Source: a virus. Taken from it: a DNA stretch of 61,584 nt. Below the pieces are notes generated by a model. That model was not told where the DNA came from. It did not search any database and worked only from the letters and a program-made list of their open reading frames with translations. A program made the translations under genes and the position numbers. The stretch spans positions 1 to 61,584 of IMG/VR virus record IMGVR_UViG_3300025120_013662; one strand, given 5' to 3'. Positions 592 through 60,308 of the stretch are shown here, in pieces. Every line of letters starts with the position of its first letter. The first letter of the stretch is position 1.

Positions 592-602
592 GGAGTAACA
601 AC

Positions 603-6134: not shown

Positions 6135-6154
6135 TAAAAACAGGAGATTCATAA

Positions 6155-7669: not shown

Positions 7670-7670
7670 A

Positions 7671-8288: not shown

Positions 8289-8299
8289 AGGTATAAAAA

Positions 8300-26300: not shown

Positions 26301-28747
26301 ACGCTTTATTAACAAGAGAACAGTTAGAACGCCAGTATGACGATATCATAGAGGCTAAAATGAAGCAGATAGACTCCTTGTGTAATCTTGGGGATTTACC
26401 TAGCCTACAATTTCAGATGGACTCCTTTATTAATGGTCTTCCAAGTGCAGGATGGTATGATAGTATATTAGCTTTCATAGCTAGGATAAGTAATGAGTTG
26501 GCAGACCTTTTAGCCAAGTCATTGTTTGGGGACGACGAAACAGAGACGTGGTCACCTCGTGCCGAAAATTTTAATGATACTAAATTTGGACAGGCCTTAA
26601 ACGCTCAATTGGCAAATCAGTTGCCGAATAGGTTGAACTCTTTTACACAATATCCGTTTATTGACGATATATTTGAAACAAGGTCAGAAACTTTAGTAAC
26701 TCAAATTGAAGCACAGCGTTTATTTCCAGATAACGTTCTCGGCCCCCGACTTGCAGACCTACCCAACACTAGAATAAACATAGAGTGGGGACCAAGGACA
26801 CCTTCTGTAAATTTAGATATCCCGCCAGTAGGATCTGAGACAGTAAGAATATATTTTGCAGCTTCTCCTAATCGAATTGGTGATTTAATAGCAGAAGCAC
26901 CGATAGCTGCCGATGAGAATGTCCTAGAAGGTTTAAGATTACGTGGACTAAGACTGTCAAACGGTAATCCGGGAGCCTTGGCTCAGGTCGATGGAATACT
27001 AGGAATCCCACCATTTATATCCGACGGCGTCAACGCTGCCGTCGGCCACTATACCCGAGGTCTCCAAGGTCATCATCTGATAGTGGATCAGATAATACTG
27101 CCACCGTACCATAAATTGGCACATACCAACAATACGATACGAAAGCTTATCTCAAATTTTTATTACTCAGAAATCGGGCGCTCCAGACTTCCGCTATTTT
27201 TAAAAGATCTTCTTGCCCCGGTTTTTATTTCTGATAGTGATAATTGTGCTACTACGAGGGATGAATCAATTGCCTTGGCAGCACTAAATGGTATACAAAG
27301 TAGGGTCATCACCTTTTTTATGAATGTTGGTCCGTTGATGACGACTTTTCTGGGTTGGTCGGCTCCTACAACTATAAACATAATAACCACATATTTGTCA
27401 AATAAAATAATTAAAGAGTTAAAAGAAAAGGTTATCTATGGACCGTATTTGCAATCTATGGAAAAAGTAAAACTTGTCTATCATTCCGAGGACCAAGAAG
27501 GGGATAAACTTTTCCTACCAGAAAATTTGAACAATGAAGATATTCTTAGGGCTGTTATCAGACAATTTATAGAAAAATTAATCTTGAAGATAGGCAGCCG
27601 AGGGGTGTTTAGAGTAAATCAAAATCCTTTAGACTCATCTTTAAATGAAGACGGGGAAGAGCAAATACAGTGGACTTGGTACACACAGATGATTGAAGCT
27701 CTAAGAGTAGAGCTTTTGACATTACCTCACGGCGAGGGATTCTTTGGAGTGAGCGACCGTGAACGAGCAAATTTGGAAAACAACGATCGTGCTTGGCTTC
27801 AGCAGGCTTTATATTATTTACCTATTCCAATATTATATGGTGGCTATATAGTTCATTTTGATGCATCAATAGATTTGATGGGGAAATATCCCAAGTTTAC
27901 ACTTGAGTCAACAAGACGCTCTGCATACGCTGACGATAGGTTGTTGGGATCCTTAAATGATAATTATGTGCCGGCTTTTTCTACAGTATTTGCAAACTTG
28001 CCATACACTTACATTTCTGAGGATGGACAAGATACAACTGAATTTTGGACACCTGCTCAAGTAGACAAAAGAATTTTGGAACTAGAAGAAAATATCATAT
28101 TGCAATCTGAACGTGCTTTAACAGTGAGTGAATTCACAGAGGAAGACGCTCAAGAATTAGAGGGACTTGCTGACGATATACGGGATATTATCACAAATTC
28201 AATAGCAAACTTGCCAGATGCTAATGATCCTAGGGTTTTGGAATATGAGAATGTTTTTGGTAATAGGTCGATATTTAGGACATATTATAGCCCACCCGAT
28301 AATAATAGAATAGATTTTTTAGTAGGGAGAGAGTTTATGTCGGTACTGGTGCCTGAGAATCAAGAAGTATTTCTCTCAGGCGAAGTTGAAGATGTCGGCA
28401 GCGGAAGACTTAGGGGAAATGATCGCCGAGAGAGGGTTTTAGTAATTTGGGAGGCTTTACAGGCAATGCGCCGTTCTCGTTTTGGGCAAGCCCTGAGAAG
28501 AGAAGGGGCGGGTGATGGTCTGAACGTCAGGCAAACCCTAGCCCGCAACGGCGCACTTCTATGGCTTAGAGAATATCAGAACAATCTTCCATACGAGCAA
28601 GTTCTGGCAAACTACTTAAGAGAAGCAACCCTTGTAGAAAATAGAGATACTGGATTGGCAGCTTTGAGGACTATTAGAGAAACAATAAAGAATAACACTG
28701 TGGAATTAAACTCACTGAGGTATATTTTGGGAGGTAAGGATGAGTAA
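23306..28747 (+). CDS. Giant virion/baseplate protein (1813 aa), unknown
   Basis: Long open frame starting at ATG 23306 with only a weak ribosome site. It is a mix of beta-rich and helical parts with no signal peptide. An Ala/Gly-rich hydrophobic stretch (near 910) reads YTAWTGLSVVAGAVAAATI, but there is no true membrane pattern around it. Its location between the spike-like protein and gp25 makes a baseplate hub or wedge role likely; T4 has gp27, gp48, gp53 and gp54 in this functional set but none this large. I recognise no domain. Average codon use matches the neighbouring structural genes. Confidence 0.65.
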   Translation: MTITRRQRNIINPFANSLLVASGIDYSYEDPRNSWVIQGIHDIYLNFGELPVIGSTLLAGSGLAEDTFLSLQDAKAYSALYPQNAKTVIDGDLFSLEECTPLESEEQLAAIAQILITDNSSVVYSTSTTEEAQRPENQGAISEISGSSTPSDQQILLQSAAQLPSINYDQSIETLSKLRKTFQYPSNTVLDAPLQTEVNSINSSLLLQSDGVDLYDWQNNALAGNQSEVKYYNSLEQMYYFVKRTNSIEPEGYDNYTENQSTIDRVVEAKNYGLTKILGIAGKLSDENLAQILDPGDDISSPLEFRSFLSVRPGSRWVYAVRLGKEFVDELEGAGVDASLADEQYSPYKKSKILLSLVTGGPFRYSSFTISSIESKIEKLLYILRQYRSLMLIENITPDMIGGFNISSEIQSLQTLQERLQAFFTYNNVEITSPENDYVEFVFSPNMTLSHVFYNGSLHTQAIGNTVFTKPKSGGDAPTPVSSEAYTNVFNGVSPYLWGFLYKSFDIVNETKDKIIADWPTWSDFLNRYTIPSVNINPSKISEERKKKSLKIAPPPNIFSLIDRVAKPTSTQATEIFNKRELYQNIVSAGASCGTGQAQIFNDIIMFANLVNGKASLKSIIRTAVLRYKGEILQSKVVQNRLKNENNESYSEIVDVGINRGIRYLDNPSATDQALRDAEEFVNRELACIVDVIGEFIEDSVLKPNGNPPLISRALRSPAARPALSFKFRKTPSRNMWKAWTSLLDRLLTQFVKQLMYGILRDTLKASLGCGPDQPNNPAAGLKSAIKSLDYGQADLNQYTEGIDLIELAQKFGLSNKDIEVVNDKETITMSPPRIEQLEQLHSDVSNITTPDELKLLLEGDATDELLSLINEMINSGEIDTEGFDGDTTAAIERFQQYGGYYTAWTGLSVVAGAVAAATITPLEKTPLLMAQRQESLLPGDERYAVLGFSNSVLREYFQALGDEIGQAKLDLLDRPAEGDESTSAEDAYCEDISPFRVDALLTREQLERQYDDIIEAKMKQIDSLCNLGDLPSLQFQMDSFINGLPSAGWYDSILAFIARISNELADLLAKSLFGDDETETWSPRAENFNDTKFGQALNAQLANQLPNRLNSFTQYPFIDDIFETRSETLVTQIEAQRLFPDNVLGPRLADLPNTRINIEWGPRTPSVNLDIPPVGSETVRIYFAASPNRIGDLIAEAPIAADENVLEGLRLRGLRLSNGNPGALAQVDGILGIPPFISDGVNAAVGHYTRGLQGHHLIVDQIILPPYHKLAHTNNTIRKLISNFYYSEIGRSRLPLFLKDLLAPVFISDSDNCATTRDESIALAALNGIQSRVITFFMNVGPLMTTFLGWSAPTTINIITTYLSNKIIKELKEKVIYGPYLQSMEKVKLVYHSEDQEGDKLFLPENLNNEDILRAVIRQFIEKLILKIGSRGVFRVNQNPLDSSLNEDGEEQIQWTWYTQMIEALRVELLTLPHGEGFFGVSDRERANLENNDRAWLQQALYYLPIPILYGGYIVHFDASIDLMGKYPKFTLESTRRSAYADDRLLGSLNDNYVPAFSTVFANLPYTYISEDGQDTTEFWTPAQVDKRILELEENIILQSERALTVSEFTEEDAQELEGLADDIRDIITNSIANLPDANDPRVLEYENVFGNRSIFRTYYSPPDNNRIDFLVGREFMSVLVPENQEVFLSGEVEDVGSGRLRGNDRRERVLVIWEALQAMRRSRFGQALRREGAGDGLNVRQTLARNGALLWLREYQNNLPYEQVLANYLREATLVENRDTGLAALRTIRETIKNNTVELNSLRYILGGKDE

Positions 28748-29141
28748 ATTACAAGGTATTTCAGTTAAAATTCCTCTTGTTTATAGTCAAGAGGATGGTC
28801 CTTACGAATTAAATAAGAATATTGGCGATGTGGTTAAACAAAACTTAAAGAACTTAATTTTAACTAATCCCGGCGAGAGACCAATGATTCGAGACTTTGG
28901 AGTAGGCTTTCATAGGTTACTATTTGAGCCAGTAAACTCAAGACTTTTAGAACGAATAAATACAAATATATTGAAGCAGGTAGGGAAGTACATGCCGTTT
29001 TTAAACATTGAAGATGTTATCTTTATAACCTCTGATGAAAACGATGGAATTTCCAATAATGAAATCTCGGTTACAATAAAATATAACCTAGGAGATTTAA
29101 ATCCTACCGAGACACTGACAATAACTTCTAATAACGACTAA
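28740..29141 (+). CDS. 25: Baseplate wedge protein, gp25/GPW family
   Basis: 133 aa, ATG 28740 with an 8-nt overlap and GGGAGG just upstream. The signature NLILTNPGERPMIRDFGVGF followed by LLFEPVN is the conserved gp25/GPW core, including the EPR-like region. gp25 (P2 gpW) joins gp6 and gp7 to form the core of each baseplate wedge and triggers sheath polymerisation. The gene order gp25 then gp6 matches P2 W-J and T4-like cores. Confidence 0.92.
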   Translation: MSKLQGISVKIPLVYSQEDGPYELNKNIGDVVKQNLKNLILTNPGERPMIRDFGVGFHRLLFEPVNSRLLERINTNILKQVGKYMPFLNIEDVIFITSDENDGISNNEISVTIKYNLGDLNPTETLTITSNND

Positions 29142-29169: not shown

Positions 29170-30963
29170 ATGGCAAAAAAACCAATCAACTATACTAGTA
29201 GAGACTTCTCATCTATAAAAGATGATTTGGTTAACTATGCAAAGCGTTATTACCCAGATACTTTCAAGGATTTCAATGAGGCATCTTTCGGTGCGCTAAT
29301 GCTTGATATGGTTTCATATGTCGGCGATCAGTTGTCGTTCTATACTGATTTTCAAGCAAATGAAAGTTTCATAGATAGTGCAATACAATATGAGAACGTT
29401 GTCCGTCTTGCTAAACAAATGGGCTTTAAATTTCCGGGAGCAGCAACAGCATCTGGTGTTTGTTCTTTTTACGTGTTAGTGCCAGCCAATATAAACGGTA
29501 GAGGTCCAGATATAAATTATTTTCCGATTCTTCAGCGAGGATCTCTTTTATCTGCTGGTGGTGGTGCAGTATATACTCTTAATGAAAGTGTTGATTTTAC
29601 GGAATCTAGTAACGAAATAACTGTGGCCCGAGTAGATGAAAGCACTGGTGCTCCTACTTTTTTTGCCATAAAGGCTTTGGGAGAAGTAATTTCAGGACAA
29701 AGATTCTCAGACATTGTAACTGTTAGTGACTATGAGAGATTCAGAAGAATTCAACTTTCTAGAAAAAATATAACAGAAGTTATATCAATTAAAGATTCTC
29801 AAGGGCACGAATATTATGAAGTTGAGCATTTGTCTCAAGATGTAGTATATTTGGAATCTACCAATTACGAAACATCAAGAGAGGCAGTGCCGTACATTAT
29901 GAAAGTAAAGCCAGTTCCAAGAAGGTTTATAACTGAAAATGATACAAACGGCAATACCTTTGTTCAGTTTGGGTATGGATCGGAAGAAAACATCACAGGA
30001 GATCTTATAGTTGATCCTGCCGACGTTGTATTGGAAGTGTCCGGCAGAACTTATATATCTAGTCAGACCTTTGACCCTACAAATTTAATAAAATCAGATA
30101 AATTTGGTGTTGCTCCTACTGATACAACTTTGACAATCACATATGCAGCAAATACTGTAAATAATATCAACTCTGCTGTTAATTCAGTTACTTCTGTAAT
30201 AGACCCAATATTTACATTTAAAAATGAGTCTTCTCTTACTCGGGATATTATAAATATTGTAGAAACTTCTCTGGAGGTTACTAACGATACGCCAATACTT
30301 GGAGATTCATCTCAACTTTCGAAGGAAGAGATAAGAAATATGGCTTTCTCTACTTTCTCGTCACAGAATAGAGCAGTAACAAGATCTGATTATATAAACT
30401 TATGTTATAGAATGCCATCAAAGTTTGGAAAAATAAAACGAGTAAATGTAATCCAAGATAAAGATTCTTTTAAAAGAAATTTAAACATCTACATTCTTTC
30501 TGAGAATATAGCTGGAAATCTTACTGTTGCAAATTCTTTACTAAAACAAAATCTAAAAACTTGGTTATCATCGAAAAGAATGGTAAACGACACAGTAGAT
30601 ATTTTAGATGCAAACATTATTAATTATGGAATTGAGTTTGAAGTTTTGACAGATCTGAACGTAAACAGATTCCAAGTGCTTCAGGATTGTATACAATTTC
30701 TAAAAGATAATCTTCTAAACGTTAAGAGCGATATAGGTGAGGCATTGTATGTCTCAGAAATATATAAGCTACTTAACGAGGTAGAGGGCGTTACAGATGC
30801 TACTGACGTAAGGCTTGTGAACAAGATTGGTGGAGATTATAGTAACTATGTTTTTGATATTGATGAGAACTTATCAAATGATGGAAGATTTTTGATTGTT
30901 CCGGAAAATGCAGTTGCAGAGATTCTTATTCCGGATCAAGATATAACAGGAACAATTAAATAA
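29170..30963 (+). CDS. 6: Baseplate wedge protein, gp6/gpJ family
   Basis: 597 aa, ATG 29170. INYTSRDFSSIKDDLVNY then FKDFNEASFGALMLDMVSYV and DQLSFYTDFQANESF is the N-terminal signature of T4 gp6/P2 gpJ. The middle has NTFVQFGYGSEENITGDL and the C-terminal half has TRSDYINLCYRMPSKFGKIK and YVSEIYKLLNEVEGVTDATD, both typical of baseplate J proteins. gp6 dimers form the ring that holds wedges together. Length is close to T4 gp6 (660 aa). Confidence 0.92.
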   Translation: MAKKPINYTSRDFSSIKDDLVNYAKRYYPDTFKDFNEASFGALMLDMVSYVGDQLSFYTDFQANESFIDSAIQYENVVRLAKQMGFKFPGAATASGVCSFYVLVPANINGRGPDINYFPILQRGSLLSAGGGAVYTLNESVDFTESSNEITVARVDESTGAPTFFAIKALGEVISGQRFSDIVTVSDYERFRRIQLSRKNITEVISIKDSQGHEYYEVEHLSQDVVYLESTNYETSREAVPYIMKVKPVPRRFITENDTNGNTFVQFGYGSEENITGDLIVDPADVVLEVSGRTYISSQTFDPTNLIKSDKFGVAPTDTTLTITYAANTVNNINSAVNSVTSVIDPIFTFKNESSLTRDIINIVETSLEVTNDTPILGDSSQLSKEEIRNMAFSTFSSQNRAVTRSDYINLCYRMPSKFGKIKRVNVIQDKDSFKRNLNIYILSENIAGNLTVANSLLKQNLKTWLSSKRMVNDTVDILDANIINYGIEFEVLTDLNVNRFQVLQDCIQFLKDNLLNVKSDIGEALYVSEIYKLLNEVEGVTDATDVRLVNKIGGDYSNYVFDIDENLSNDGRFLIVPENAVAEILIPDQDITGTIK

Positions 30964-32444
30964 TGGCTATTAAGAGATATTTCCTAACAAAAGATACTAC
31001 AATAACAAACGCTTTTAAGTCAGACCTACTTACGAGAGGCACTGGTTCAAATATGGGTGCATCAGATATACTTGAAACTTTCGTTATCCATGGTCAGACA
31101 AGCGCTTCTGTTAATGCCACGAATGCTGAACAATCACGAGTGCTGGTACAGTTTCCTATAGTTCAATTGTTAGATGATATAACAACTGGTATAGTTCCAT
31201 CTAGTAGCGTGAGTTATCACTTGAGAATGTTTAATGCTCCTCACGGCGATACAACCCCCCTTAGTTATAGTTTAGATTTCTCTATGGTTAGTGGTGCTGC
31301 TTGGGCTGAAGGCCGAGGTCTCGATATGGAACAATATTCAGACTTGGGTGAAGCTAACTGGGTAGCCGCTATAGAGGGAACAAACTGGCAAGCAACTGGT
31401 GGCGACTATTATAGAAATGGTGCGTATAGCGCAAGTTATTTCTTTTCAGGAGGACTAGAAGATGTTGACCTGAACGTAGACTTTGCCATTAATAAGTGGC
31501 GATCCGGTGCGAACGCAAACTATGGATTATTACTGAAGCATAGGGACAATGTAATTTCAGGGAATGAAGGAACTTTTTATACTAAAAAGTTCTTTAGTCG
31601 AACTAGCGACTTTTTCTTCAAGAGGCCTTACCTTGAGGCAAGGTGGGATTCTTCAAGAAAAGATAACCGTGGCAATTGTGTCTTATCCAGTGCCCTTGCC
31701 CCTGCAAGTGATAACTTAAACACAATATTTTTATATAATAATATACGAGGAGAACTCAAAGATATACCTAGACTTGCTGGCCCCGGTCAAAAACTATTAG
31801 TTAGTTTTTATAGTAGCAGTGCAGGTGCCCCCACGGGCAACGTTTTGAGAGTCATAGATTCTAGCGGTGCTCTAGTAACTAATGTGACCGGAGGGTTACT
31901 GTCCGAAAATGGTGTAAATATAACCGGGACTTATAGTTGCTCTTTCGCCATTACCAGTAGTTTTGAATATGTTCAAGATGTTTGGCATTCAGGCGGAGTT
32001 GAATACTTTACAGGGTCGATTGTTCCTATTCCTATGTCTGCTAGCTATTTAATATATGAAGATGAGTATGTGACAGATGTTACAAATCTCAGAGATTCGT
32101 ACATTAGAGGACAGAAGCCAAGGCTAAGAGTCTTTTCTAGGAAGAAAAATTGGCAACCAAATATCTATTCAGTAGCAACAGCAGAAATAGAGCCAGAGAT
32201 TATTGAAAATTCTTTTTATCGTTTGTCTAGAACTATAGACAATCTTGAAATTATACCTTTTGGTACAGGAAGTCAAAATCATACCAGATTGTCATATGAT
32301 GTTAGCGGAAGTTATTTTGAATTGGACACTTCAACTTTAGAGTCTGGGTATTCTTATGATCTTCAATTTGTGTACCAACTTCAAGGGCAATACCGTCAGC
32401 AAACAGAAACTTTTAAGTTTAGAATAGAAGAAGAAGCCTTATGA
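30963..32444 (+). CDS. Virion protein with CBM96/DNRLRE-like fold
   Basis: 493 aa, ATG 30963 overlapping the gp6 stop (TAATG). The N-terminal half follows the pattern of DNRLRE/CBM96 carbohydrate-binding domains: SRVLVQFPI, then VSYHLRMFNA, then MVSGAAWAEGRGLDMEQYSD and ANWVAAIEGTNWQATGGD. That family stabilises or binds polysaccharide. The remainder is beta-rich with Ser/Gly-rich turns. It sits between gp6 and the giant wedge protein, so it may be an adaptor or host-surface binder of the tail. The fold call is by sequence pattern, from memory. Confidence 0.6.
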   Translation: MAIKRYFLTKDTTITNAFKSDLLTRGTGSNMGASDILETFVIHGQTSASVNATNAEQSRVLVQFPIVQLLDDITTGIVPSSSVSYHLRMFNAPHGDTTPLSYSLDFSMVSGAAWAEGRGLDMEQYSDLGEANWVAAIEGTNWQATGGDYYRNGAYSASYFFSGGLEDVDLNVDFAINKWRSGANANYGLLLKHRDNVISGNEGTFYTKKFFSRTSDFFFKRPYLEARWDSSRKDNRGNCVLSSALAPASDNLNTIFLYNNIRGELKDIPRLAGPGQKLLVSFYSSSAGAPTGNVLRVIDSSGALVTNVTGGLLSENGVNITGTYSCSFAITSSFEYVQDVWHSGGVEYFTGSIVPIPMSASYLIYEDEYVTDVTNLRDSYIRGQKPRLRVFSRKKNWQPNIYSVATAEIEPEIIENSFYRLSRTIDNLEIIPFGTGSQNHTRLSYDVSGSYFELDTSTLESGYSYDLQFVYQLQGQYRQQTETFKFRIEEEAL

Positions 32445-35400
32445 CCAAGTCTAAACTGTTTCAAAACAGCAAGCAAGCAACTACAGTTGGGAAGTACTTA
32501 AAGAGTACATCGGCTGGTAACGTAGGCGAGGGGATAGAATCTTCTGCTCATCTTAGTGAAAGTATAAAGAGAATACAAACTTTTCTACCAGATACAAATT
32601 ATTCTGATCCGGAGAATTTTGTAAAATATGGCTCCGCAGAAAAATATTATAGGGATTCTTTTGATTACATAACAAACTATTATCCATATGATGGATCCGC
32701 CTTAGAAAAAGTAAAATTTTATAATGACTTAAATCCTCTTGAGAAATATATTTTTGAGGAAAAATACCCAACAGCAACTGGGTTTATATCGATTGGTTCG
32801 GATTATGGAACACCAGTATCTCATTCTTCGGGCTACTTTGCGCCTCAAGATTCAACTTATAACCAATACCTTCAGGCCAAAGGTGGTCCATATTCTGGAA
32901 CTATTTATTCTACTTCAGATTATCGGGTAAATAATTTAGGATTTTGTGGACCTTCCGGTTCCACTGTTGAATTCTTTTTAAGAAAAAATAATACTGGGGA
33001 TGGATATCCTGCGGGATCTGTTTCTGGTAAAGAAGTGGTTGTTGATATATGGAACGGAGTAACCTCATCGGCACCGTCATTCGGGAGGATGACAATTTTA
33101 TGCAAATCAGGTTCGCAGGATAGATTTTATGTAACACTACAATCAGGCACCCACGGTGCCGGTGTTGCAGGTGTTCAGGAGCTTCCTGTTCCTACCACTG
33201 GTGGATTAAATATTGCTGATGGTCAGTGGAGAAATTATTCGTTTGCTTTCGCTAATAGCGGTTCGAATACAATGCTTGATTTTTATGTAAACGGACAATG
33301 TGTTGGCCCTCAAATAAATATTAACTCACTTATTGGAGAAGTCACGGGTGCTTTAGTAGCTAATATAGGATCATTGCGTGGTGATGTTTATGGTCCAAAT
33401 AATAAAAACCGAGGCGCTCTAGAGGGCTATGGAAAGCTTACAGGCTCTATCGACGAATTTAGATTTTGGAAAAAAAGCCGTTCGGGCGAAGAGATAGGAA
33501 GACATTGGTTTACTGGGGTTCACGGCGGCGCAGATAAGCACCTTGCTAATGTTGATCTGGGTCTTTATTATAAATTTAATGAAGGTATAACTTTAACAAG
33601 TAGTATAGATCAGATTGCTCTTGATTATTCTGGTCGTGTATCAAATGGATCGATTATAGGATATGATGCTCAAGTAAGAAATACTGGATCTTCTATCAAT
33701 GAGCTATCTTTGTCCTCCATAAGAGAGGTTGAGGACCCAATAGTAAGAAGTTCTAATATAAAAGTACTGGAAGATAAAAATATATTAGTAACTTCAGGTA
33801 GTAACTATGATTATACTAACAATTCAAGAATTATAAATTCTATTCCTTCTTGGATCGTAGAAGAGGATGAAAATAACGGGGGAGAACTATCTTCTTTATC
33901 TCAGATCGTTTCGAGCTATTTTGACACTTTGTTTGGACAAATAACGGCACTAAGAAGAATAAAAGACAAACAATATGTTTCTGGTTCTATCTCTGGCAGT
34001 ATAAACGAATTCCCACACAATGAAAGATTAATTCAGGGTATGGGACTAGAGGCTCCTGAAATATTTGAAAACATTGGCGCTCTGGAATTATATTCACAGA
34101 GAGATGAGCAAATTAATTTTGATCAGCCTATATCAAATATTAAAAATTCAATCTATAAAAATCTATACAACAATTTAAATGAAATATATAAATCAAAAGG
34201 TACAGCCGAAGCAATAAGAAATTATATACGATGTTATGGAGTAGGAGAAGATATAATCTCTCTGAACGCATATGGAAATAATGTTGAATATTTTTTACAG
34301 AGCAACTATAAAGCTGGCACTACTCCTAAGAAGTATGCTGATTTTTCAGGACGTAGACGTAGATCAGACGTTACAGCTTCAATCTATCAGTATTATGATT
34401 CTAACGTTCAGGGTTCCCATGGAATAATTGCCGGAACTCATGCATCCGCTTCAGCCTTTACAATTGAGTATGAAGCTCTCTTTCCAGATAATTCAGTAAT
34501 CGATAATTTAGAGCACGACCCAGTTGAAGTAGTTACAGCATCTTTATTTGGATTTCACACCCCAAGAGGCGCTTTCAGCGCTTCAGTATCTGAAGTAGAT
34601 GACCTTACATGGCATTCAATGGGGGGACCTATAAAAGATGATGGTCTACAGGTTTATGCAATTAAATCTCCTGCGGAATTTGCAGAAGTGTCAAATCCTG
34701 CACATAAGGTAAGAGACGTTTATTTTGCTGTTAAGAACAGGGCTGGAACAACTCTCCTGACTAGTGATATTTATCGTAATGTTTATAGTGACCAGAAATG
34801 GAATTTAGCACTTAGCGTAAGGAATGAATTATACCCCTTCGCTCAGGAAGTAAGCGGAACAACTATAGGTTCTGCTGCCGCTAAGAAAAACCATAAGTTT
34901 ATTCTAGAACTTTACGGATCAAATTATGACGGTGGTACCAAAAGAGAGAGCTTCAAAACCACCACTACTTTGCAGTGGCCAAGTGGCTCCGCTGAAATAA
35001 CATCTTCTAAAAGACTGTATATGGGTGCCCACAGAACAAACTATACAGGAACTGTTTTGGAAAATTCTGATGTTCACGGAACTAGTTTAAGATATTGGAC
35101 TGATTACTTACCAACAGGGACAGTTGATCTTCACGCTCGTGATGCTGATAGCTATGGAAGATTAAATCCATATAGACAAGCCTATAGTTTTCAGACGCCA
35201 AATAGACCAGCAGCTTACATACCAGAAATCTCAACGTTGGCTTTAAACTGGGATTTTGCAAATGTAACAGGCTCAGACGCATCTGGAAGATTTCTGGTAT
35301 CTGATTTTTCTTCGGGGTCGTTTGCTCCAGAGATCGCCGCTACAGCATTAATTACAATCACAGGAGCAGGGGATCTAGTAGATGGTCAAAAATTCACTAT

Positions 35401-38400
35401 TAGAGACACCGCCGGAAGAGATCATACTTTTGCAATCGAAGACGCAAATGATAATACGGCAAATAATCTTATCGGTGTTGATACGGCTCAGGGCGATGAT
35501 GATGATGGCGCAGCAGCAGTTCAGTTTGCCGCAGCTATAAACGCCGGAACTTGTGCAACTACAATAACTGCTGTACGTGCTGGAGCGACAGTTATTTTAA
35601 CTCAAGATGTAGTCGGCGCTCGTGGCAATAGGTCCAACGATGATGCCGCTGCCGGAGTTACTGTAGGTGATTTCACCGGGGGCAAGGATAGTTATGAGTC
35701 AAGCTACCAAGGAATTCTTAGTGACATAAATTTACGTCAACATACGGGTAGGGGAGATTTCTTTGCTCCAAATGATACCCCAATAAGAAAACAATATGTT
35801 TATACTGAAAAACTACAATTACCAGAATATGTGACTGACGACGATATGATCCGCATCCTAGACAAAGATGTTGATACCTTTACGCTCGAAAGTCGTCCAA
35901 TGAATTACTTTTTTGCTCTAGAGAAAAGTGTTTACCAAAGTGTATCTAAGAGAATGCTACAGATGTTTGCATCAATCGATGAGTTTAATAATCTTATTGG
36001 AGAGCCAGTAAACAAATATAGGGGCAGATACAAATCTCTAGAAAAACTAAGAGAACTTTTCTTTAGGAATGTTTCTTCTGACAGGGTAGATTTACAAAAA
36101 TATGTAGCTTTCTATAAGTGGATCGACTCATCTATGGGACGAATGATAGAAGAGATGTTCCCTGCTTCTGCTCGTGTTGCAGACAATGTTAGAACAGTTA
36201 TTGAAAGTCACGCTCTTGAAAGATCAAAGATTTCTTATAAATATCCCGGAAGCAGTAAGAGGTATTTCCCAATTCTTTCTGGTACAGCAAAAAGCAATGG
36301 TGGTAGTGTTTGTATCGATACTCCCGGCTGGAAGTTTAATCACGCTCCAGTAAACAGAAAACAAAGTACAAATGCTTATTGGTGGAAATATCGAGCACCA
36401 AGAAATAGTATTCCTACTCCAGAAACTAATGTAAGTTGGATAACTGATGGAAGACAAACCGTATTTAATGCCTTAAGAAGAGAAGTTTCTGGAAGTCAAT
36501 TAGTCTGCGTATCTTCCGATATTTTAATGGGTAATAAAGAATATTTTAATAAAGTAAATAACATAACAGACTTTACTTTTGGAGAGTTTAAGCCTTTACC
36601 TGATATTGTTGATGCTATAGAACCAAATACTAAAAAAGAATTTCCATTTTTTGCTTCTCTTATAAAATCTACGGATGGAGATGCTGGAACTTTCTCAGGC
36701 AAGATGATTGCACCATTTAGAGCTATTAGCTCCTCTATTGAAACAGGAATTTTTGGTAATATTGGCGGCACTATCAAAAATGTTGATTTTGTTAATCTTC
36801 ACAATGATGAAGTCTATAACAAAGATATTGGAACCCCTATGCAAGGACCCTATACTAACGAGCACGTTGGTGGGATTCAAGCAAGACATAATAGACCTTT
36901 GCGTCTGAACAATATAACGACCAAAAGAAAAGAGTCATTCAACCTCTTGGTGGCTCCCGCTACAGGGGCTTTTACAACAATAGAAGTTACAGACGATGGA
37001 TCTTTCAGTATAGATGATTATCACGGTAAAACTATAACTCTATCTGCCGGAGGAGTTGATTATAGCGCAACAGTAAGTAAAACGACTGCTGCTGCATCAA
37101 CCTCTAAAACAGTCATAGGTATTTCAGGATCTTCAAACAAAGGATTAGTCGCACAATCTTTAATGGGCAGTCTGCTCGCATCTATTAATGCGGATGGTCT
37201 TCCTGTAACCGTAGAATTTACGGACTCAGGTGCTACTGCTAGTAAAATTAAAGTTACAAGCTTGGCTCTCGATAATTCTATGGACGCAATAGCTTTTGCT
37301 GGAACTTGGCCATCTACGGATGCCTTAATGGAGCCTAATCCTCCTACTTTCACCTTCTTGGCGAATGGAACAGCCGATGTCTTTAGGAACCTTGCTGGGT
37401 CATTAAAGACTAGTGCCGTAGGATTTGAAGATATATCTCATGGGCAATACTTCAGGGGTGGTGGAGTAAAGTCACCAGTAAACATTTCGAATATAGCATC
37501 CATAACAGGGTCTACCGGTATAGACGTTTCTTCTGGTGCTGGTGTCAAAACATTAGGAAACTTTTCAAACAAGTATGAAGTTGTACACGGTTTTGGTCGA
37601 GAATTTGCTAATATGGACTTTGTATTTAATAACAGTTCTTATTACAGTTCTGGAATCCCAAGTGCCTTTCTAACTACTCCGTCAATGCGTACTGTCTCTA
37701 CTCAAACAGGTTCGGCAGACTATGATGCGCCTAGGCAACGATCAGCTAGAATAACAAATAAAACTATTATTGCTACTCGATTTGCTGCGCCCGGAAGTAA
37801 GTTAGATTCAAAACAACAGTTCCGTGATGTAGCTTCGGATCAAATGTCCCCGAATAATGCGCTACCATTTCGAAACTTGGGAGTTAGAAAACCATATTTA
37901 GGAGCATTAAACAGTCACACTAGATGGGGTGGCTTCTCTGGTTCCAGTCCTTTTGTTCTTGATACTTTTAGAGCCGACGATAGCCATGGCTTCTTTGGTC
38001 GTCAGGAGCCATTAAAAGAGTTAAATGATGGACTTGATCTTTTCGGGTTTGCTGCTTGTTCTATAACATTTTCTAATGCTCAGTTTGCTAACGGAAACAC
38101 CTTGACGTTAAACGTCGCAGGACACACATATTCAGCAGCGGTGAATACATCTGTAAATCCGGGCTCCTCAACTGTTACGGTAATAGGTTTAAATGGCGTA
38201 TCATCTGGCGGCGGCGGTGCGAATGATGCAGCTATTGCTACAGCATTAGCTACAAGCCTTTCTCAATGGGTTTCACAATTGGTGGGCGGCGCACAAAGGC
38301 CGTTCGTGCCGATATTGGCTTCAAATGTAGTAAGAGTTCTAAGAAAAGACATGGGTGGCTCGGAAGACGGAAAGGTTTTTGAAGGAGCACTTACAGGAAA

Positions 38401-41400
38401 GACTGGTGTTTCTGTAGCGGGCTTTGCCGCAGTTGACCCAACTACACTCGCAGCTTCAGCCTACCAAAAGGCATCTGCGATGCCTCATCATAAGACCCAG
38501 AGAAATGCCGTAGAAAGAATAAGGCTTGGACTAGCACCTTCATTCCCCCCACAGTTTCCACCAGAGTCTTCTAGATTAATATCGGGATCAACTTTTGATA
38601 CCGGTTTAATTACGAGACCAATACCACAAGCAGATAGGTCAAGCTGGTTCCAATCACTTTCGGGTTCAGATTATAACAATTATCAAAGCTATGTTATTTC
38701 AAGTTCAAGATATCCATCTAGCATAACGATCCCTTCGGCATCTTTGACAACACCGGGAGCGCATGCATTGGGCGCTATTATCGTTGTTGGCAACACTTCA
38801 TCTGACTGGGATGGAAAAACTATAGATATTGAAGATGCTCTTTCAAAAGCTACAAGGTTTACGGCTGACGATAGTGTGGCGTATGGTGCATTCAGTCGAA
38901 CTGCTGGTAATCCAGTTGTATATACATACGGTGTCGATGCTGATGGCGGCGTTGAAAATAAAGCGTTCGTTGCCGGCTCGTTGTTATTAGCTATGGAGGC
39001 AGCTAACGCTGCAAATGATATGGCAATAACAGTTAGTATAGATCAATCAGGAGCGAACCCTATCATTGGTCTTCGCCAAACTTATAGAGGAACCGCAGGA
39101 AACAATACGATCGAGGGAACTGCGTTTGAGGGCGGTGGCTCTCTTGCCGGTGCGTCGGGCTTTGCTAATGGCAGTAACGATGTGCCAATATTGGCTGAAT
39201 TAGGGCAAGCACCATTTAGTGGGACAACATTCCAAAACCCCCGGAGTGGCGGTGATCCTGTATATGTTGGTAGGTATTTAACTTCATTTTTCTCTGCAAG
39301 TTACTCCGTCCTGACCGGATCTGGTGGACAGCGTGAGTTTCCTTGGTCTAGGCAAATAGGCTTTGTGCCATGGCAACAGCTTCGAGCAGGCAATACTAAC
39401 CTAGGGAGATACTACCGGCAGAACAATCTTTATGAAATTTCACCAGCTAGATACGCTCCTACCTTTTTGGCAAATGGTCAAGAACAAATGAACACAACCC
39501 CCCAAACACAACTTGGGGTACCTTTTAGGGCGCATTATGACCGTTTAAACAACGACCCAGCTAACTTCCCGGCTACGGCTGGAATATACTATAAAGACCA
39601 ACGAGCAGTCAAGAAAAGAGTCTTGAAATCGTTTATCGAGCCACCTGTTACTTCAAAATACAAGCCTTTGTTACATCAAATATCAACGTTCCGGGGGATT
39701 GCGGATGCCAATATAGCAACTTCAGATAAAAAATCTGATGTTTCTTTGTTGTATTCTTATGGGAACACGTTAATGGGATTTGCTAATAAAGATTTAAATA
39801 TTGAGATTGGATCACAGAAAAATAAAAATCATCTTTTAGGTTCGATAAGAAGGCCTTATGAGATATTAAGAGACAATTATATCGAAAACGTGATGTCTGG
39901 CACAGACGGTGTTAATATTATAAAAATGTTTGTATACTCGGAAACAATTTATCCAAAGGACAGGTATGGATATTTATCAGGTACTCGAAGCCGCCGAGCA
40001 TTCAAAAATAGATTTTGGCGAGATGATATTTCTTTTGATGAAAATTTAAAAACTTCTGGCATCGGCGGGACCACTGCTGTGAACTCAGCAGGGCTCTTTA
40101 GCACCATTGCTATAAGTAGATTTAATAGACAAATGAAAAGAATGGAGGTAGGAGTTCTTCCAACTCCAAATTCATCATCTCAGGGTGCTGTTTATATGTC
40201 ATCTCAACAAATATGGGGCGAAACAACGGGTTCATCCGCCTTAGAGGCATTATATGGTTCCGCTTCTATCTGGCCAATGGACTCATATCTATATTCTGAC
40301 GCAGTGGCAGCCAATGAATTTACATCAACCGGATCATATCCGGTGGGTATTGTGGGTAATCTTGCTGCTGGAGAACTAATGACGCCATGGCACGGGAGAC
40401 CTATACAGGATACTGCTAGCGATGCAGCGTATAAGCTTTATGCTGAATCTCAGTTCATAGGAGCACAATATATTTACACGGTGCCGTGGATTGATGGATC
40501 TCCTAGTAATACTAGAAGTTTCCTAGGTTATGCACCGGGTGCGGCTATAACAAGACCACCTTGGACAGCAGGAAGGGAGAGAAGGTTTGTCGATGGACCA
40601 ACTAAGGGACAACTCAACGAGGGCCGAGCACCTTTTTATGACACTTATGAAACTTGGGCAGACGATGTAAGAGCGCAGGGGCAAGGACATACAATTATTC
40701 CAGAGTTCAGAATTAGTGAACATGTGGAGGCTTATTCTACAGGTAGTGCGGATCAAGAAGTCCGCCGAGTTCTTGAACTAACTGGAGCCAGTCTTGGTGT
40801 TTCTACCGGCGAACAGTCTACATTTATTGATAGGTATTCACAAACTGATAAGCTTGAGTTCCTTGACACATTTATAAAAAATGGTAGTAAAGATTTATCT
40901 TTTAACAAATACCCAAAACACTTAGAGCTAAAAACTGATGCTATTGTAAAGCTTTTGCCTTACGATGGTTTTTATCCGGTACTTAGAACTGTGCAAATCG
41001 CAACGATGTTCTCTCAGTCGTATACTAAGACAAAACCACATTACCAAACAGGGGAAAATGACGTTTGGGTTGTTGGCTATTCAGGTGCTTCGGGATCTAT
41101 ATTCAAACCAGATAGTTTTAGACCTTTGCTTCGTCCGTTTTTTGCTCCCGGAATTTTGTATAATTCAATTAAATCTGGACTAGCTGTAGACTATCCCATC
41201 CGCCGTGGCGGATTAGGAACTAGGGGTGATGATGGTCAATTCCATAGAATTAGTAACTATTTGACTAATACAAATTCTGCTGGTTTCCAAGCTCTTCAGG
41301 GTCCTCTAAGTGGCGCATTATGGACTTCTGGAACAGCAGACTCAAGCAGGTATGTGGGTCAAATTCCGGGGAACACAAGAAGAAGATCAAATGGACAATT

Positions 41401-43708
41401 CGACTGGTACAATACAACAGTCGTAGTTGACGTAGATGGTTCTGATTCAGCCCACCAACATACTTATGGTGAAGATATCAGGAAATTCTTCTGGTCTGAA
41501 AGAGTAGCCTTTGAGGATCTTCTAAATCCAAAAAAAGTTTTAGAAGATACCGCATATGGCGGGATAGCATCCTCAGATGTAAACTATAATTTACATAGGG
41601 ATTGTACAGGAAGTATTTCTGGAACTATTAATGATGGGCTTTATAAGAAGGCTATATCAAATTTCTTAGCATCTGTGCCCGAGTTTTTCCTAAAGAAGAA
41701 ATCTAATCGATTTGGGAGTGAAGGATACCTTACCAAGTTTGTCTCACGTCTTGGAGCGGGAGCTAATGAAAATAACGTATCTGGAATAGAAAAAAGAACT
41801 GTTACCGTAAATACAAATACTGCGTATGTGATGGAGATAGGGTTACTAAAAACAGAACAGTTCAATCTATACAGTAATCCTTATGCTTTTGGCGTACCAA
41901 CGGCAACAGGGTCTAATGGCTGGGACCATGGTCTTCCGCTGGCAGACCGACCTGTTGGCACAAGTTGGCCCTTGCACCGTGGTGAGTTTGCGCCATTCAC
42001 TCCTCCATATTATTACGGACCAAGTACTGTAACAATTACGTATATGCCAACAACTGCGGATTTAGGCGGACAAACAGTGGGAGAAGTTTCACTGGATGAT
42101 ATCATTGGCGAAGCAGCACAAAGAACATATGTTACATTTGGCAACGAAAGCGGAAGTCTATACGATTTCTCGTCCGGATCCTTTGTAGACGTTTCGGGGA
42201 CTACTGTTTCGACGTCCAAGCAGCCATTCTATGGCTGGAATCGGGCATGGCAAAACAGGATGGACATTGATGCTTCAATAACTATTGATAATAGACATCC
42301 AATAGAAAACTCATATTATTCTCCTAGGGATCCGAACAAGTGGGTGATTATGCCAAAGTGGGAATGCCCAGTATTAGATTTTCCAAAAACTCAAACATTC
42401 ACTAATGGAATTAGAAGCACAGACTATGATTTCTCTTCCTCTATTGGTAGCAGTAAAACAGAGTTTAGTAACGGTCCACGAGAAAATCTTGATGTCAGTA
42501 CTTCTGGAATGTGGCACCAATATGGAACTTTGCCTGATGCAAATCAGGGAATTTATATATACATAAAAGACATTACACCCACTGAAACTGAAACAAAATT
42601 AGTGGGGTTCTCGACCGCTGGCGGTTATGCCACAGTTAAGAAGCTACCTAAATTTGTGATTGATTCAGAGCGTGCAATTTCTTCTTTGGCAACGCTGACA
42701 GGGTTTGATCCAGACGAGGTCATGACCGACGGATTTGAAATCTCTAAAGCAAAACGTGTTGGACAACTTGCCTCTAATCAAGAAAAAAGTATTTCCGAAG
42801 CAGTAATAGCAATGCCATACTATGAAGATCCAGAAACAAATGCTCCAACTGCTATAACGCTCAGAGCAAACCTCACCCGCCTAGGTCCAAAAGTTAAAGA
42901 ATTCCGTAGAGCTTTCACTAAATATTCTTTGCCGCCAGCTTTGTCTAGAAAATTGGTTCCTATGATTCCTAAAAAATATCCTTTAATATCACAGGATATA
43001 AATCCATTTAGTGAAGATGATTATGAAAAAGCTCTTACTTCTGGTGATGATACAACGGTTCCTGTGATATATTTGTTTGAGCATAGTATAAATTTATCAA
43101 CACAAGATTTAGCAGATATATGGCAAGGCATCTTGCCTGACATTGGACACTCTCTAAAAACAAGTGTAACTTCAATAGACCATTATATGCCGAGGTCATC
43201 AGCAAGGAATAGAAGAAGGAATACAGAAAATAAATTTCCTGAAATCTTATCAAAGCAGATAGAGCTTGATCTTCCTGATGGACAAAGAACCGGGATACCA
43301 AGGCCTGATTTGTTAGATATATCTCCCTCCTTTGAAAAAGATGGATTTCATCCAGAGATTAAGTGGCTAGTGTTCAAGGTGAAGCAAAAAGGTATTGGTA
43401 GTTATAAAGAATTTATGCAAAAAGAAATCGAGGGCTATGCTGGAGATACTTATGAAAAAGTATTTGGACGAGTATCAAGAGAAGGTATGACTCCGGCAGA
43501 AGAGCAAGCACAAAATCAAATTGAGGATGCTTGGGCTGCACAAACGTATAAAAATACTTTTGGAATAACTGACGAAAATGGTGGACCAACATATAACTGG
43601 CCATATGATTATTTCTCTCTAATAGAGAGCGCAAAAATTACATCAAAGGTTGGATTTAGACCAGACCTTGATCAAGAATTTAGAGATTATGAAGATGGTG
43701 AGGAGTAA
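32441..43708 (+). CDS. Giant virion protein (3755 aa), gp7/gpI position, with lectin-like and repeated modules
   Basis: ATG 32441, ATGA overlap. Residues 165-360 look like a concanavalin A/LamG fold (STVEFFLRKNN, then WRNYSFAF, then GSIDEFRFWKKSRSGEEIG). Residues 490-610 include LYNNLNEIYKSKGTAEAIR and YGVGEDIISLNAYG, which resemble the gpI/gp7 wedge initiator (RGT...lG segment). A second ConA-like segment runs from about 675 to 900. Four related modules of 120-145 aa are inserted further on (see repeats). The C-terminus is helical. gp25, gp6 then this protein matches P2 W-J-I order, so it is likely the wedge backbone with added receptor-binding domains. T4 gp7 is only 1032 aa. Confidence 0.72.
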   Translation: MTKSKLFQNSKQATTVGKYLKSTSAGNVGEGIESSAHLSESIKRIQTFLPDTNYSDPENFVKYGSAEKYYRDSFDYITNYYPYDGSALEKVKFYNDLNPLEKYIFEEKYPTATGFISIGSDYGTPVSHSSGYFAPQDSTYNQYLQAKGGPYSGTIYSTSDYRVNNLGFCGPSGSTVEFFLRKNNTGDGYPAGSVSGKEVVVDIWNGVTSSAPSFGRMTILCKSGSQDRFYVTLQSGTHGAGVAGVQELPVPTTGGLNIADGQWRNYSFAFANSGSNTMLDFYVNGQCVGPQININSLIGEVTGALVANIGSLRGDVYGPNNKNRGALEGYGKLTGSIDEFRFWKKSRSGEEIGRHWFTGVHGGADKHLANVDLGLYYKFNEGITLTSSIDQIALDYSGRVSNGSIIGYDAQVRNTGSSINELSLSSIREVEDPIVRSSNIKVLEDKNILVTSGSNYDYTNNSRIINSIPSWIVEEDENNGGELSSLSQIVSSYFDTLFGQITALRRIKDKQYVSGSISGSINEFPHNERLIQGMGLEAPEIFENIGALELYSQRDEQINFDQPISNIKNSIYKNLYNNLNEIYKSKGTAEAIRNYIRCYGVGEDIISLNAYGNNVEYFLQSNYKAGTTPKKYADFSGRRRRSDVTASIYQYYDSNVQGSHGIIAGTHASASAFTIEYEALFPDNSVIDNLEHDPVEVVTASLFGFHTPRGAFSASVSEVDDLTWHSMGGPIKDDGLQVYAIKSPAEFAEVSNPAHKVRDVYFAVKNRAGTTLLTSDIYRNVYSDQKWNLALSVRNELYPFAQEVSGTTIGSAAAKKNHKFILELYGSNYDGGTKRESFKTTTTLQWPSGSAEITSSKRLYMGAHRTNYTGTVLENSDVHGTSLRYWTDYLPTGTVDLHARDADSYGRLNPYRQAYSFQTPNRPAAYIPEISTLALNWDFANVTGSDASGRFLVSDFSSGSFAPEIAATALITITGAGDLVDGQKFTIRDTAGRDHTFAIEDANDNTANNLIGVDTAQGDDDDGAAAVQFAAAINAGTCATTITAVRAGATVILTQDVVGARGNRSNDDAAAGVTVGDFTGGKDSYESSYQGILSDINLRQHTGRGDFFAPNDTPIRKQYVYTEKLQLPEYVTDDDMIRILDKDVDTFTLESRPMNYFFALEKSVYQSVSKRMLQMFASIDEFNNLIGEPVNKYRGRYKSLEKLRELFFRNVSSDRVDLQKYVAFYKWIDSSMGRMIEEMFPASARVADNVRTVIESHALERSKISYKYPGSSKRYFPILSGTAKSNGGSVCIDTPGWKFNHAPVNRKQSTNAYWWKYRAPRNSIPTPETNVSWITDGRQTVFNALRREVSGSQLVCVSSDILMGNKEYFNKVNNITDFTFGEFKPLPDIVDAIEPNTKKEFPFFASLIKSTDGDAGTFSGKMIAPFRAISSSIETGIFGNIGGTIKNVDFVNLHNDEVYNKDIGTPMQGPYTNEHVGGIQARHNRPLRLNNITTKRKESFNLLVAPATGAFTTIEVTDDGSFSIDDYHGKTITLSAGGVDYSATVSKTTAAASTSKTVIGISGSSNKGLVAQSLMGSLLASINADGLPVTVEFTDSGATASKIKVTSLALDNSMDAIAFAGTWPSTDALMEPNPPTFTFLANGTADVFRNLAGSLKTSAVGFEDISHGQYFRGGGVKSPVNISNIASITGSTGIDVSSGAGVKTLGNFSNKYEVVHGFGREFANMDFVFNNSSYYSSGIPSAFLTTPSMRTVSTQTGSADYDAPRQRSARITNKTIIATRFAAPGSKLDSKQQFRDVASDQMSPNNALPFRNLGVRKPYLGALNSHTRWGGFSGSSPFVLDTFRADDSHGFFGRQEPLKELNDGLDLFGFAACSITFSNAQFANGNTLTLNVAGHTYSAAVNTSVNPGSSTVTVIGLNGVSSGGGGANDAAIATALATSLSQWVSQLVGGAQRPFVPILASNVVRVLRKDMGGSEDGKVFEGALTGKTGVSVAGFAAVDPTTLAASAYQKASAMPHHKTQRNAVERIRLGLAPSFPPQFPPESSRLISGSTFDTGLITRPIPQADRSSWFQSLSGSDYNNYQSYVISSSRYPSSITIPSASLTTPGAHALGAIIVVGNTSSDWDGKTIDIEDALSKATRFTADDSVAYGAFSRTAGNPVVYTYGVDADGGVENKAFVAGSLLLAMEAANAANDMAITVSIDQSGANPIIGLRQTYRGTAGNNTIEGTAFEGGGSLAGASGFANGSNDVPILAELGQAPFSGTTFQNPRSGGDPVYVGRYLTSFFSASYSVLTGSGGQREFPWSRQIGFVPWQQLRAGNTNLGRYYRQNNLYEISPARYAPTFLANGQEQMNTTPQTQLGVPFRAHYDRLNNDPANFPATAGIYYKDQRAVKKRVLKSFIEPPVTSKYKPLLHQISTFRGIADANIATSDKKSDVSLLYSYGNTLMGFANKDLNIEIGSQKNKNHLLGSIRRPYEILRDNYIENVMSGTDGVNIIKMFVYSETIYPKDRYGYLSGTRSRRAFKNRFWRDDISFDENLKTSGIGGTTAVNSAGLFSTIAISRFNRQMKRMEVGVLPTPNSSSQGAVYMSSQQIWGETTGSSALEALYGSASIWPMDSYLYSDAVAANEFTSTGSYPVGIVGNLAAGELMTPWHGRPIQDTASDAAYKLYAESQFIGAQYIYTVPWIDGSPSNTRSFLGYAPGAAITRPPWTAGRERRFVDGPTKGQLNEGRAPFYDTYETWADDVRAQGQGHTIIPEFRISEHVEAYSTGSADQEVRRVLELTGASLGVSTGEQSTFIDRYSQTDKLEFLDTFIKNGSKDLSFNKYPKHLELKTDAIVKLLPYDGFYPVLRTVQIATMFSQSYTKTKPHYQTGENDVWVVGYSGASGSIFKPDSFRPLLRPFFAPGILYNSIKSGLAVDYPIRRGGLGTRGDDGQFHRISNYLTNTNSAGFQALQGPLSGALWTSGTADSSRYVGQIPGNTRRRSNGQFDWYNTTVVVDVDGSDSAHQHTYGEDIRKFFWSERVAFEDLLNPKKVLEDTAYGGIASSDVNYNLHRDCTGSISGTINDGLYKKAISNFLASVPEFFLKKKSNRFGSEGYLTKFVSRLGAGANENNVSGIEKRTVTVNTNTAYVMEIGLLKTEQFNLYSNPYAFGVPTATGSNGWDHGLPLADRPVGTSWPLHRGEFAPFTPPYYYGPSTVTITYMPTTADLGGQTVGEVSLDDIIGEAAQRTYVTFGNESGSLYDFSSGSFVDVSGTTVSTSKQPFYGWNRAWQNRMDIDASITIDNRHPIENSYYSPRDPNKWVIMPKWECPVLDFPKTQTFTNGIRSTDYDFSSSIGSSKTEFSNGPRENLDVSTSGMWHQYGTLPDANQGIYIYIKDITPTETETKLVGFSTAGGYATVKKLPKFVIDSERAISSLATLTGFDPDEVMTDGFEISKAKRVGQLASNQEKSISEAVIAMPYYEDPETNAPTAITLRANLTRLGPKVKEFRRAFTKYSLPPALSRKLVPMIPKKYPLISQDINPFSEDDYEKALTSGDDTTVPVIYLFEHSINLSTQDLADIWQGILPDIGHSLKTSVTSIDHYMPRSSARNRRRNTENKFPEILSKQIELDLPDGQRTGIPRPDLLDISPSFEKDGFHPEIKWLVFKVKQKGIGSYKEFMQKEIEGYAGDTYEKVFGRVSREGMTPAEEQAQNQIEDAWAAQTYKNTFGITDENGGPTYNWPYDYFSLIESAKITSKVGFRPDLDQEFRDYEDGEE
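35328..35695 (+). repeat. Repeated beta module 1 in giant virion protein
   Basis: Encodes the segment from EIAATALITITGAGDLVDGQ to FTGGKDS. It has the pattern A-x-I-x-I-x(6)-DG-x(2)-F-x-I-x-D, then an Ala-rich helix (AAVQFAAAINAG), then TVILTQDVVGARGN. It is one of four diverged copies inserted in the same gene. Confidence 0.65.
36960..37380 (+). repeat. Repeated beta module 2 in giant virion protein
   Basis: Encodes a diverged copy: TTIEVTDDGSFSIDDYHGK, TITLSAGGVDYSATV, a helix AQSLMGSLLASINADG, then ASKIKVTSLALDNSMDA. The order of strand, helix and strand matches module 1, but few residues are identical. Confidence 0.55.
38056..38435 (+). repeat. Repeated beta module 3 in giant virion protein
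   Basis: Encodes CSITFSNAQFANGNTLTLNV, AGHTYSAAVN, a helix NDAAIATALATSLSQWVSQL and a strand NVVRVLRKDMGGSEDGKVFE. It has the same overall order as modules 1 and 4, with the position 1 motif N-G-N-T-L-T-L in place of D-G-x-x-I-x-I. Confidence 0.55.
38752..39183 (+). repeat. Repeated beta module 4 in giant virion protein
   Basis: Encodes ALGAIIVVGNTSSDWDGKTI, DIEDALSKATRFTADD, a helix AGSLLLAMEAANAAND, then PIIGLRQTYRGTAGNNTIEG and FANGSND. The end R-G-T-A-G-N-N is close to G-A-R-G-N-R-S of module 1. Confidence 0.6.
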
Positions 43709-59708: not shown

Positions 59709-60308
59709 ATGAAAAAGCTAATGACCGAGTGGCGGAACTTTCAAAAAGTTCACAAAGTAAACGAGAAGATTTATAAACAATATGCCTCACGTCTCAGTGA
59801 AGACTCACAGGAGGTTTTCTGGAATTTGTCGGAAGACCAAAAAGTATTTGTTGTTGAAGACTGGATAAGCCAAGGACGCCCAGCCCAGCATCTTACAGAA
59901 GAGAAAATTGCTGACCTTGATGCCGAACAAGCATATAGCACAAAAGTTCGTGGCGTCAATGTTATTATCAATTTAAAAGATACTGACCTTGAGGGAACTC
60001 GGCACAGCAAGGAACGCCAGTTCCGTCACGACGAAAAGATTTCTAATAACGCCATCATCCAAGCAGTTGAAATGGCCATCGGCAAAATCATTCAAGATTA
60101 TGCCAACGGCGAACTTGGAAACGATGAACCCTTTCATATTCGTATGGTGGGCAAAGGCAAGGCTCCAGCCCTCAATGTTATAGCCGTTTTAGATATGCGA
60201 AAAGGTCCGGACACCATAAAAGTAATTACTGTTATGCGTAAGGACGATTTCAAAACAGATACATTTGGCGGCGGTGAACAAAAAACCTACACCGTACAAA
60301 CCCGATGA
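59709..60308 (+). CDS. Tag-B protein with RelE/DUF4258-like C-terminal domain, 199 aa
   Basis: ATG 59709 (the open frame extends upstream but overlaps the previous gene). Tag B is MKKLMTEWRNF. Residues 20-70 are helical (QYASRLSEDSQEVFWNLSED). Residues 94-180 read DLEGTRHSKERQFRHDEKIS, then AVEMAIGKIIQDY, FHIRM, LNVIAVLDM and IKVITVMRKDDF, with the His-x3-Arg-x2-Arg and strand order seen in DUF4258/BrnT-like RNase folds. A toxin-like nuclease delivered with the phage DNA is possible. The fold is inferred from pattern only. Confidence 0.6.
   Translation: MKKLMTEWRNFQKVHKVNEKIYKQYASRLSEDSQEVFWNLSEDQKVFVVEDWISQGRPAQHLTEEKIADLDAEQAYSTKVRGVNVIINLKDTDLEGTRHSKERQFRHDEKISNNAIIQAVEMAIGKIIQDYANGELGNDEPFHIRMVGKGKAPALNVIAVLDMRKGPDTIKVITVMRKDDFKTDTFGGGEQKTYTVQTR

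Follow-up and report, generated by a model that had tools for sequence, protein, structure and literature searches.

Does the very long gene that follows gp25 and gp6 in this virus encode a single enlarged wedge protein of the gp7/gpI type that has absorbed surface-binding domains, as a preliminary description drawn from the sequence proposed? The window analysed here, the whole 61,584-base linear virus record, holds the gene in one open frame, with a start ATG that shares bases with the stop codon of the preceding gene (ATGA). The product, rich in Gly, Ser and Thr, is 3.6 times the length of T4 gp7 (1032 aa), which bears out the reported length of more than three times gp7. The W-J-I order read from gp25, gp6 and the giant gene is also right, except that a gene not mentioned in that reading intervenes (Table 1). 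Its 493-aa product was found in all 15 aligned relatives, isolates included, at 24-62% identity; Pfam and PHROG searches gave no match and a PDB search no clear match, and it may be a separate wedge component. The gp6-like protein has full-length tblastn matches at 31-32% identity in Microcystis phage Mel-JY01, Flavobacterium phage immuto and the 484-kb phage LR756508. Elsewhere in the window, glycosyltransferase genes and sugar-nucleotide genes form a block (582-9794; phrog_2170, phrog_4356, phrog_540) upstream of the tail genes, and a 262-aa ORF at the record end (60305-61093) has a weak tape-measure profile match (4e-5), although the usual tape-measure position is taken by an 1813-aa gene (23306-28747).

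Table 1. Features of the giant gene and its upstream neighbours in the window
Feature	Positions	Strand	Residues	Remarks
gp25-like baseplate wedge / sheath initiator	28740..29141	+		PF04965 E 1.7e-12; phrog_261 2.7e-16
gp6/gpJ-like baseplate wedge protein	29170..30963	+	597 aa	phrog_10646 8.9e-19; phrog_219 2.5e-18
Conserved protein	30963..32444	+	493 aa	between gp6 and the giant gene
Giant protein	32441..43708	+	3755 aa	single open frame
ConA-like (Laminin_G_3) domain	33074..33496	+	212-352	Pfam E 3.4e-5, 24.5 bits
gpI-like segment I	33731..34360	+	431-640	motif IYKSKGTAEAIRNYIRCYGV; conserved in 98 loci and in Mel-JY01, immuto and LR756508
Segment C	34361..35320	+	641-960	proposed second ConA segment, unsupported
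Inserted module M1	35321..35689	+	961-1083	missing in nearly all relatives; same site in L040 and L057
Segment D	35690..36265	+	1084-1275	end of the part in common with isolates; HMM matches in L001, L031 and L032
Junction	36266..36355	+	1276-1305	in 16 relatives the frame divides here into two ORFs
Half B	36356..43705	+	1306-3755	own gene of ~2180 aa in 16 relatives
Inserted module M2	36950..37363	+	1504-1641	same site in 16 relatives
Inserted module M3	38036..38434	+	1866-1998	same site in 5 relatives
Inserted module M4	38747..39184	+	2103-2248	same site in 8 relatives

Scanning the whole giant protein against Pfam and PHROGs was an approach that we discarded, and as a full-length query the protein found no relatives in viral contigs. 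The segment aa 434-640 found 29 loci there, and a profile of this segment gave at least 455 confirmed relatives, of which 80 were kept. Our comparisons were made on 98 related IMG/VR loci, with 68 complete loci. No relative of the giant protein was found in the bacterial and archaeal genomes searched, and there is therefore neither a prophage nor a host lead. Among GenBank phages the giant protein matched only LR756508. The jumbo 'moraphages' were considered as a home for the family and set aside: gp25 and gp6 are listed for them, and the text offers no link (PMC12619734). In Mel-JY01 (WWT39511.1), immuto (QQO92079.1) and LR756508 the orthologous position is occupied by proteins of 1265-1400 aa that have segments I (aa 431-640) and D (aa 1081-1275) in common with the window protein, from which they differ in having no half B and no detected module. 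The gene order gp25, gp6, a gene of ~400 aa and the I plus D protein is kept in all three.

The four modules are, by sequence comparison, homologous. Self-BLAST of the giant protein saw no repeat, and 'diverged', the term under which the modules were first described, is therefore apt. Leave-one-site-out HMMs, on the other hand, recovered M1 (E 2e-10), M2 (2e-6), M3 (2e-10) and M4 (1e-6), and modules at other sites with E down to 6e-19; the best of 1000 shuffled controls reached E 0.0047-0.2 depending on the model. Modules at sites 313 and 1303 are the exception, being missed by HMMs built without them and linked by weak profile matches only. The profile comparison that the preliminary description had named as a check upheld homology: in hhalign between module site groups, M2 and M3 matched with a probability of 97.6%, M2 and M4 with 87% and other groups with up to 99.5%, and M3 and M4 with only 43%. 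The modules had no match in Pfam (Ig-like and ConA families included), in PHROGs, in a PDB hmmsearch or by tblastn in 50,697 phage records, and they constitute a module family without an entry in Pfam or PHROGs.

That the modules are inserted, as had been claimed, is seen from the backbone, which runs through the empty sites of relatives. Across the 98 loci each module is a clean block, either present or missing, with continuous flanking backbone, and relatives with empty sites are 30-48% identical over the whole protein. Mapped onto the backbone, about 90 modules occupy at least 12 sites; in window residues these are 206, 313, 960 (M1), 1303, 1346, 1502 (M2), 1767, 1865 (M3), 2102 (M4), 2682, 3162 and 3315, and site 2682 holds up to three modules in tandem. 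With the same model, the window has four modules and other complete loci have at most three each. In 20 whole records, the giant gene holds 24 of the 26 modules; the remaining two lie in the gene that immediately follows the giant gene on the contig of L057 (L057:20218-20613) and in a 635-aa ORF on the contig of L027 (G006:7060-7464). In L028, site 2682 carries an insertion of ~440 aa made of repeats 'LYVGGEFTKAGN..NNIARWS' that looks propeller-like by eye, and a site that takes modules elsewhere may thus accept unrelated domains.

What kind of domain is it that is inserted? The AlphaFold model of M1, predicted from 61 module sequences, has strands around one helix (pLDDT 89.4, pTM 0.83), and the predicted fold is alpha/beta, contrary to the earlier description of beta modules. 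Its best solved match in Foldseek is chain 8fqc_I1 of phage Milano (E 5.9e-4, probability 1.00, TM 0.52); the next five matches, with phages 7-7-1 and cyanophage A-1(L) after Milano, are all contractile-tail entries, and the chain lengths of the matches are those of sheath proteins. The similarity is to one domain (TM 0.45-0.52). The M1 fold recurs in predicted viral structures, sheath and baseplate J-like proteins among them. On the predicted model, then, the module fold is similar to that of sheath proteins. The Milano sheath protein (gp20) has an external extension domain at residues 91-203 (PMC10811340), and the insertion domain (InD) of the XM1 sheath has been likened to D3 of the flagellar cap protein FliD (PMC10457771). 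The natural reading of the model is that M1 matches such a sheath outer domain, because domain size and match length fit. The sheath domains have no detectable sequence similarity to the modules, and a sheath protein carries one such domain, whereas the giant baseplate-region protein carries several copies at many sites. A second comparison is offered by the Ig-like accessory domains of phage structural proteins, which, as far as Fraser et al. 2006 is relayed in PMC9230969 and PMC10684548, are likewise optional and horizontally exchanged. The modules differ from these in not being Ig-like by Pfam, in having an alpha/beta fold that comes closest, among solved structures, to sheath proteins, and in occupying many internal insertion sites of one protein.

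A fold held in common with sheath proteins also suggests another role for the modules, namely that they chiefly stabilise the particle by cementing neighbouring subunits and do not bind the host. Stability is one of the roles proposed for additional sheath domains, whose number rises with genome size (PMC9230969). We regard this as rather unlikely, since the presence, number and position of modules vary among near relatives, and in 30 of the 68 complete loci no module was detected, which is hard to reconcile with a structural need. Most likely, the modules would vary the outer surface of the particle. Of the earlier proposal that a wedge backbone has absorbed surface-binding domains, the insertion of modules into a baseplate-region protein stands; surface binding is the part that we infer, as domains with the sheath outer fold may serve either adhesion or particle stability.

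The backbone itself is gpI-like in one place. Segment I matches Tail_P2_I (PF09684) at 34181-34273 with 11.2 bits (E 0.011), below the curated cut-off of 20.6 bits, and two relatives score 12.7 and 11.3 bits, also below the cut-off and in segment I only. When whole records were searched, the KGT motif of segment I was the sole Tail_P2_I match in the window, in a 210-kb relative (E 0.034) and in LR756508 (E 0.024). Phage Mu, whose gp48 occupies the gpI position, gave no match in the same search. In hhalign against P2 gpI and T4 gp7 the E-values were 0.12-0.46, not significant, with the P2 alignment falling on the KGT motif. Structure prediction in segments, which the preliminary description had called for, succeeded for M1 and gave for segment I an all-helical model of low confidence (pLDDT 56), with which Foldseek found nothing. 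Because Tail_P2_I is sub-threshold, hhalign is not significant and the structure prediction failed, we call segment I gpI-like by place and motif, a weak sequence-based assignment with family membership below the cut-off. The claim that the giant gene is the gp7/gpI-position protein thus holds for its position and for a gpI-like segment, and not for the profile scores or the model. Compared with the BW3 proteins (P2 gpI, XM1 gp17, T4 gp7, Milano BW3), the giant protein has in common its place after gp25 and gp6, a KGT-containing helical motif and a probable role as anchor for receptor-binding parts; in many phages receptor-binding proteins attach to BW3 at the baseplate periphery (PMC10811340). 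It differs in size (3755 aa, against 176 in P2, 242 in XM1 (PMC10457771) and 1032 in T4), in the extra conserved gene that intervenes, in its fusion to a second large protein and in its sub-threshold sequence membership.

Two ConA-like segments had also been proposed, and one of them remains. The Laminin_G_3 match at aa 212-352 scores 24.5 bits in the window and 27.8 bits in the relative L003, against a cut-off of 27.6. Segment C has no Pfam or PDB match, and none of 23 family members has a Laminin_G_3/ConA Pfam match there. The PDB search returned nothing usable for the ConA segments, nor for half B, which matched no known family. A ConA-like domain, a Gly/Ser/Thr-rich sequence of huge length, a half B that matches nothing and weak gpI statistics are all what might be expected of a large tail fibre or fibre-network protein encoded after gp6, whose KGT segment would resemble gpI only locally or by chance. 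That the giant gene is of this kind seems unlikely to us, for segments I and D occupy the same gene position in Mel-JY01, immuto and the 484-kb phage, and Tail_P2_I matches nowhere but in segment I in three genomes.

We consider it probable that the product of the giant gene is a scaffold at the baseplate periphery which bears exchangeable surface domains and whose first third is of gpI/gp7 type. Gene order and the weak gpI match would place the protein at the wedge periphery of a contractile-tailed phage. The first third would be a wedge protein in the BW3 role, the usual dock of receptor-binding proteins, and would continue within a single chain into another large structural protein. The combined backbone would be fitted with small surface domains, all from one family and with the predicted fold of sheath outer domains. 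Recombination would add, remove, copy and exchange these domains at a restricted number of positions where insertion is tolerated. A protein in the BW3 place would be exposed, and extra domains there would spare the contraction machinery, as has been argued for the sheath (PMC9230969). The modules, presumably exposed on the particle, would vary its outer surface, the benefit being weak host-surface binding or shielding; a role in stabilising the particle is the other that may be envisaged.

The distribution of the modules is in keeping with such movement. L080 has two copies, at sites 206 and 1346, with 87% protein identity and, over 446 bp, 90.6% DNA identity, the latter stopping at the module edges. 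The L050 copies at sites 1767 and 1865 are 73% identical in protein, and modules of L034 and L074 are 60% alike across different sites and genomes. Modules also diverge or are replaced faster than their flanks: for 245 of 281 same-site pairs, identity between the modules is lower than between the sequences that flank them, a descriptive count in which the pairs are not independent owing to kinship. L003 and L016 have same-site modules that are 62% identical between flanks that are 96% identical, while L015 and L016 show the reverse (98% and 88%), and contrasts in both directions are as expected if there is exchange plus fast evolution. On the backbone tree the same-site changes number 3 for 3 carriers at the M1 site, 5 for 6 at M3 and 6 for 9 at M4. 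A stronger version of this scheme, in which the modules are a mobile protein cassette that a dedicated or strongly favoured recombination route copies among the dozen sites and between phages, we hold to be quite improbable; if true, it would be a domain-level diversity system for the phage contact surface. It is very improbable that the modules are old divergent duplicates of one ancestor and that losses only produced the pattern. Some sites (313, 1303, 3162 and 3315) are indeed confined to single clades and require one or two changes on the backbone tree, but the copies within one genome that are 87% and 73% identical, the DNA identity that ends at module edges and the near matches across sites and genomes all speak against it.

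The claim of one enlarged wedge backbone does not survive comparison with relatives. Only aa 1-~1275 correspond to the gpI/gp7-position protein of the isolates; for the other ~2480 aa, some members of the family have a gene of its own. M1 is the only window module in the gpI-type part; M2, M3 and M4 are in half B. In 16 relatives the frame is broken after segment D, giving proteins of ~1220 and ~2180 aa, and in the seven of these examined closely the ORFs are separated by 25-60 bases, lie in differing frames and include a second gene with a conserved start region. Some other relatives are split at positions other than after segment D, and in the 210-kb relative (L026:13323-18806) half B is in pieces with a 320-aa ORF of a different kind between them. 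Either fusion or fission of the two halves has therefore taken place. The split after segment D requires two changes on the backbone tree, and fission of a fused gene appears the likelier, which is unproved because that tree is unrooted. We also considered half B as a duplicate of half A and rejected it, as hhalign among all backbone segments gave no signal between the halves while the modules, as a positive control, were detected. Unusual length and a gene split in part of the family might raise the suspicion of an assembly or annotation artefact, but with a single ORF of 2793-3951 aa in 49 of the 68 complete relatives, and with split forms that are real genes too, since their start regions are conserved and their frames differ, the probability of this is practically nil.

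Among phage tail proteins, it is the receptor-binding ones, that is, fibres and spikes, for which domain shuffling is best known. In the present case a conserved baseplate-region protein gains whole domains at many internal positions, and the empty site, the single copy, tandem copies and fresh duplicates are all seen in a single family that comprises over 450 environmental contigs. The phages concerned form a large and as yet uncultured group of tailed phages, and with this family one can ask how much a structural protein will accept, by what route domains move and which benefit extra domains bring. Our results suggest that these phages keep re-dressing the outside of the baseplate with modules that appear and disappear, spread as copies from one fixed position to another and diverge faster than the rest.
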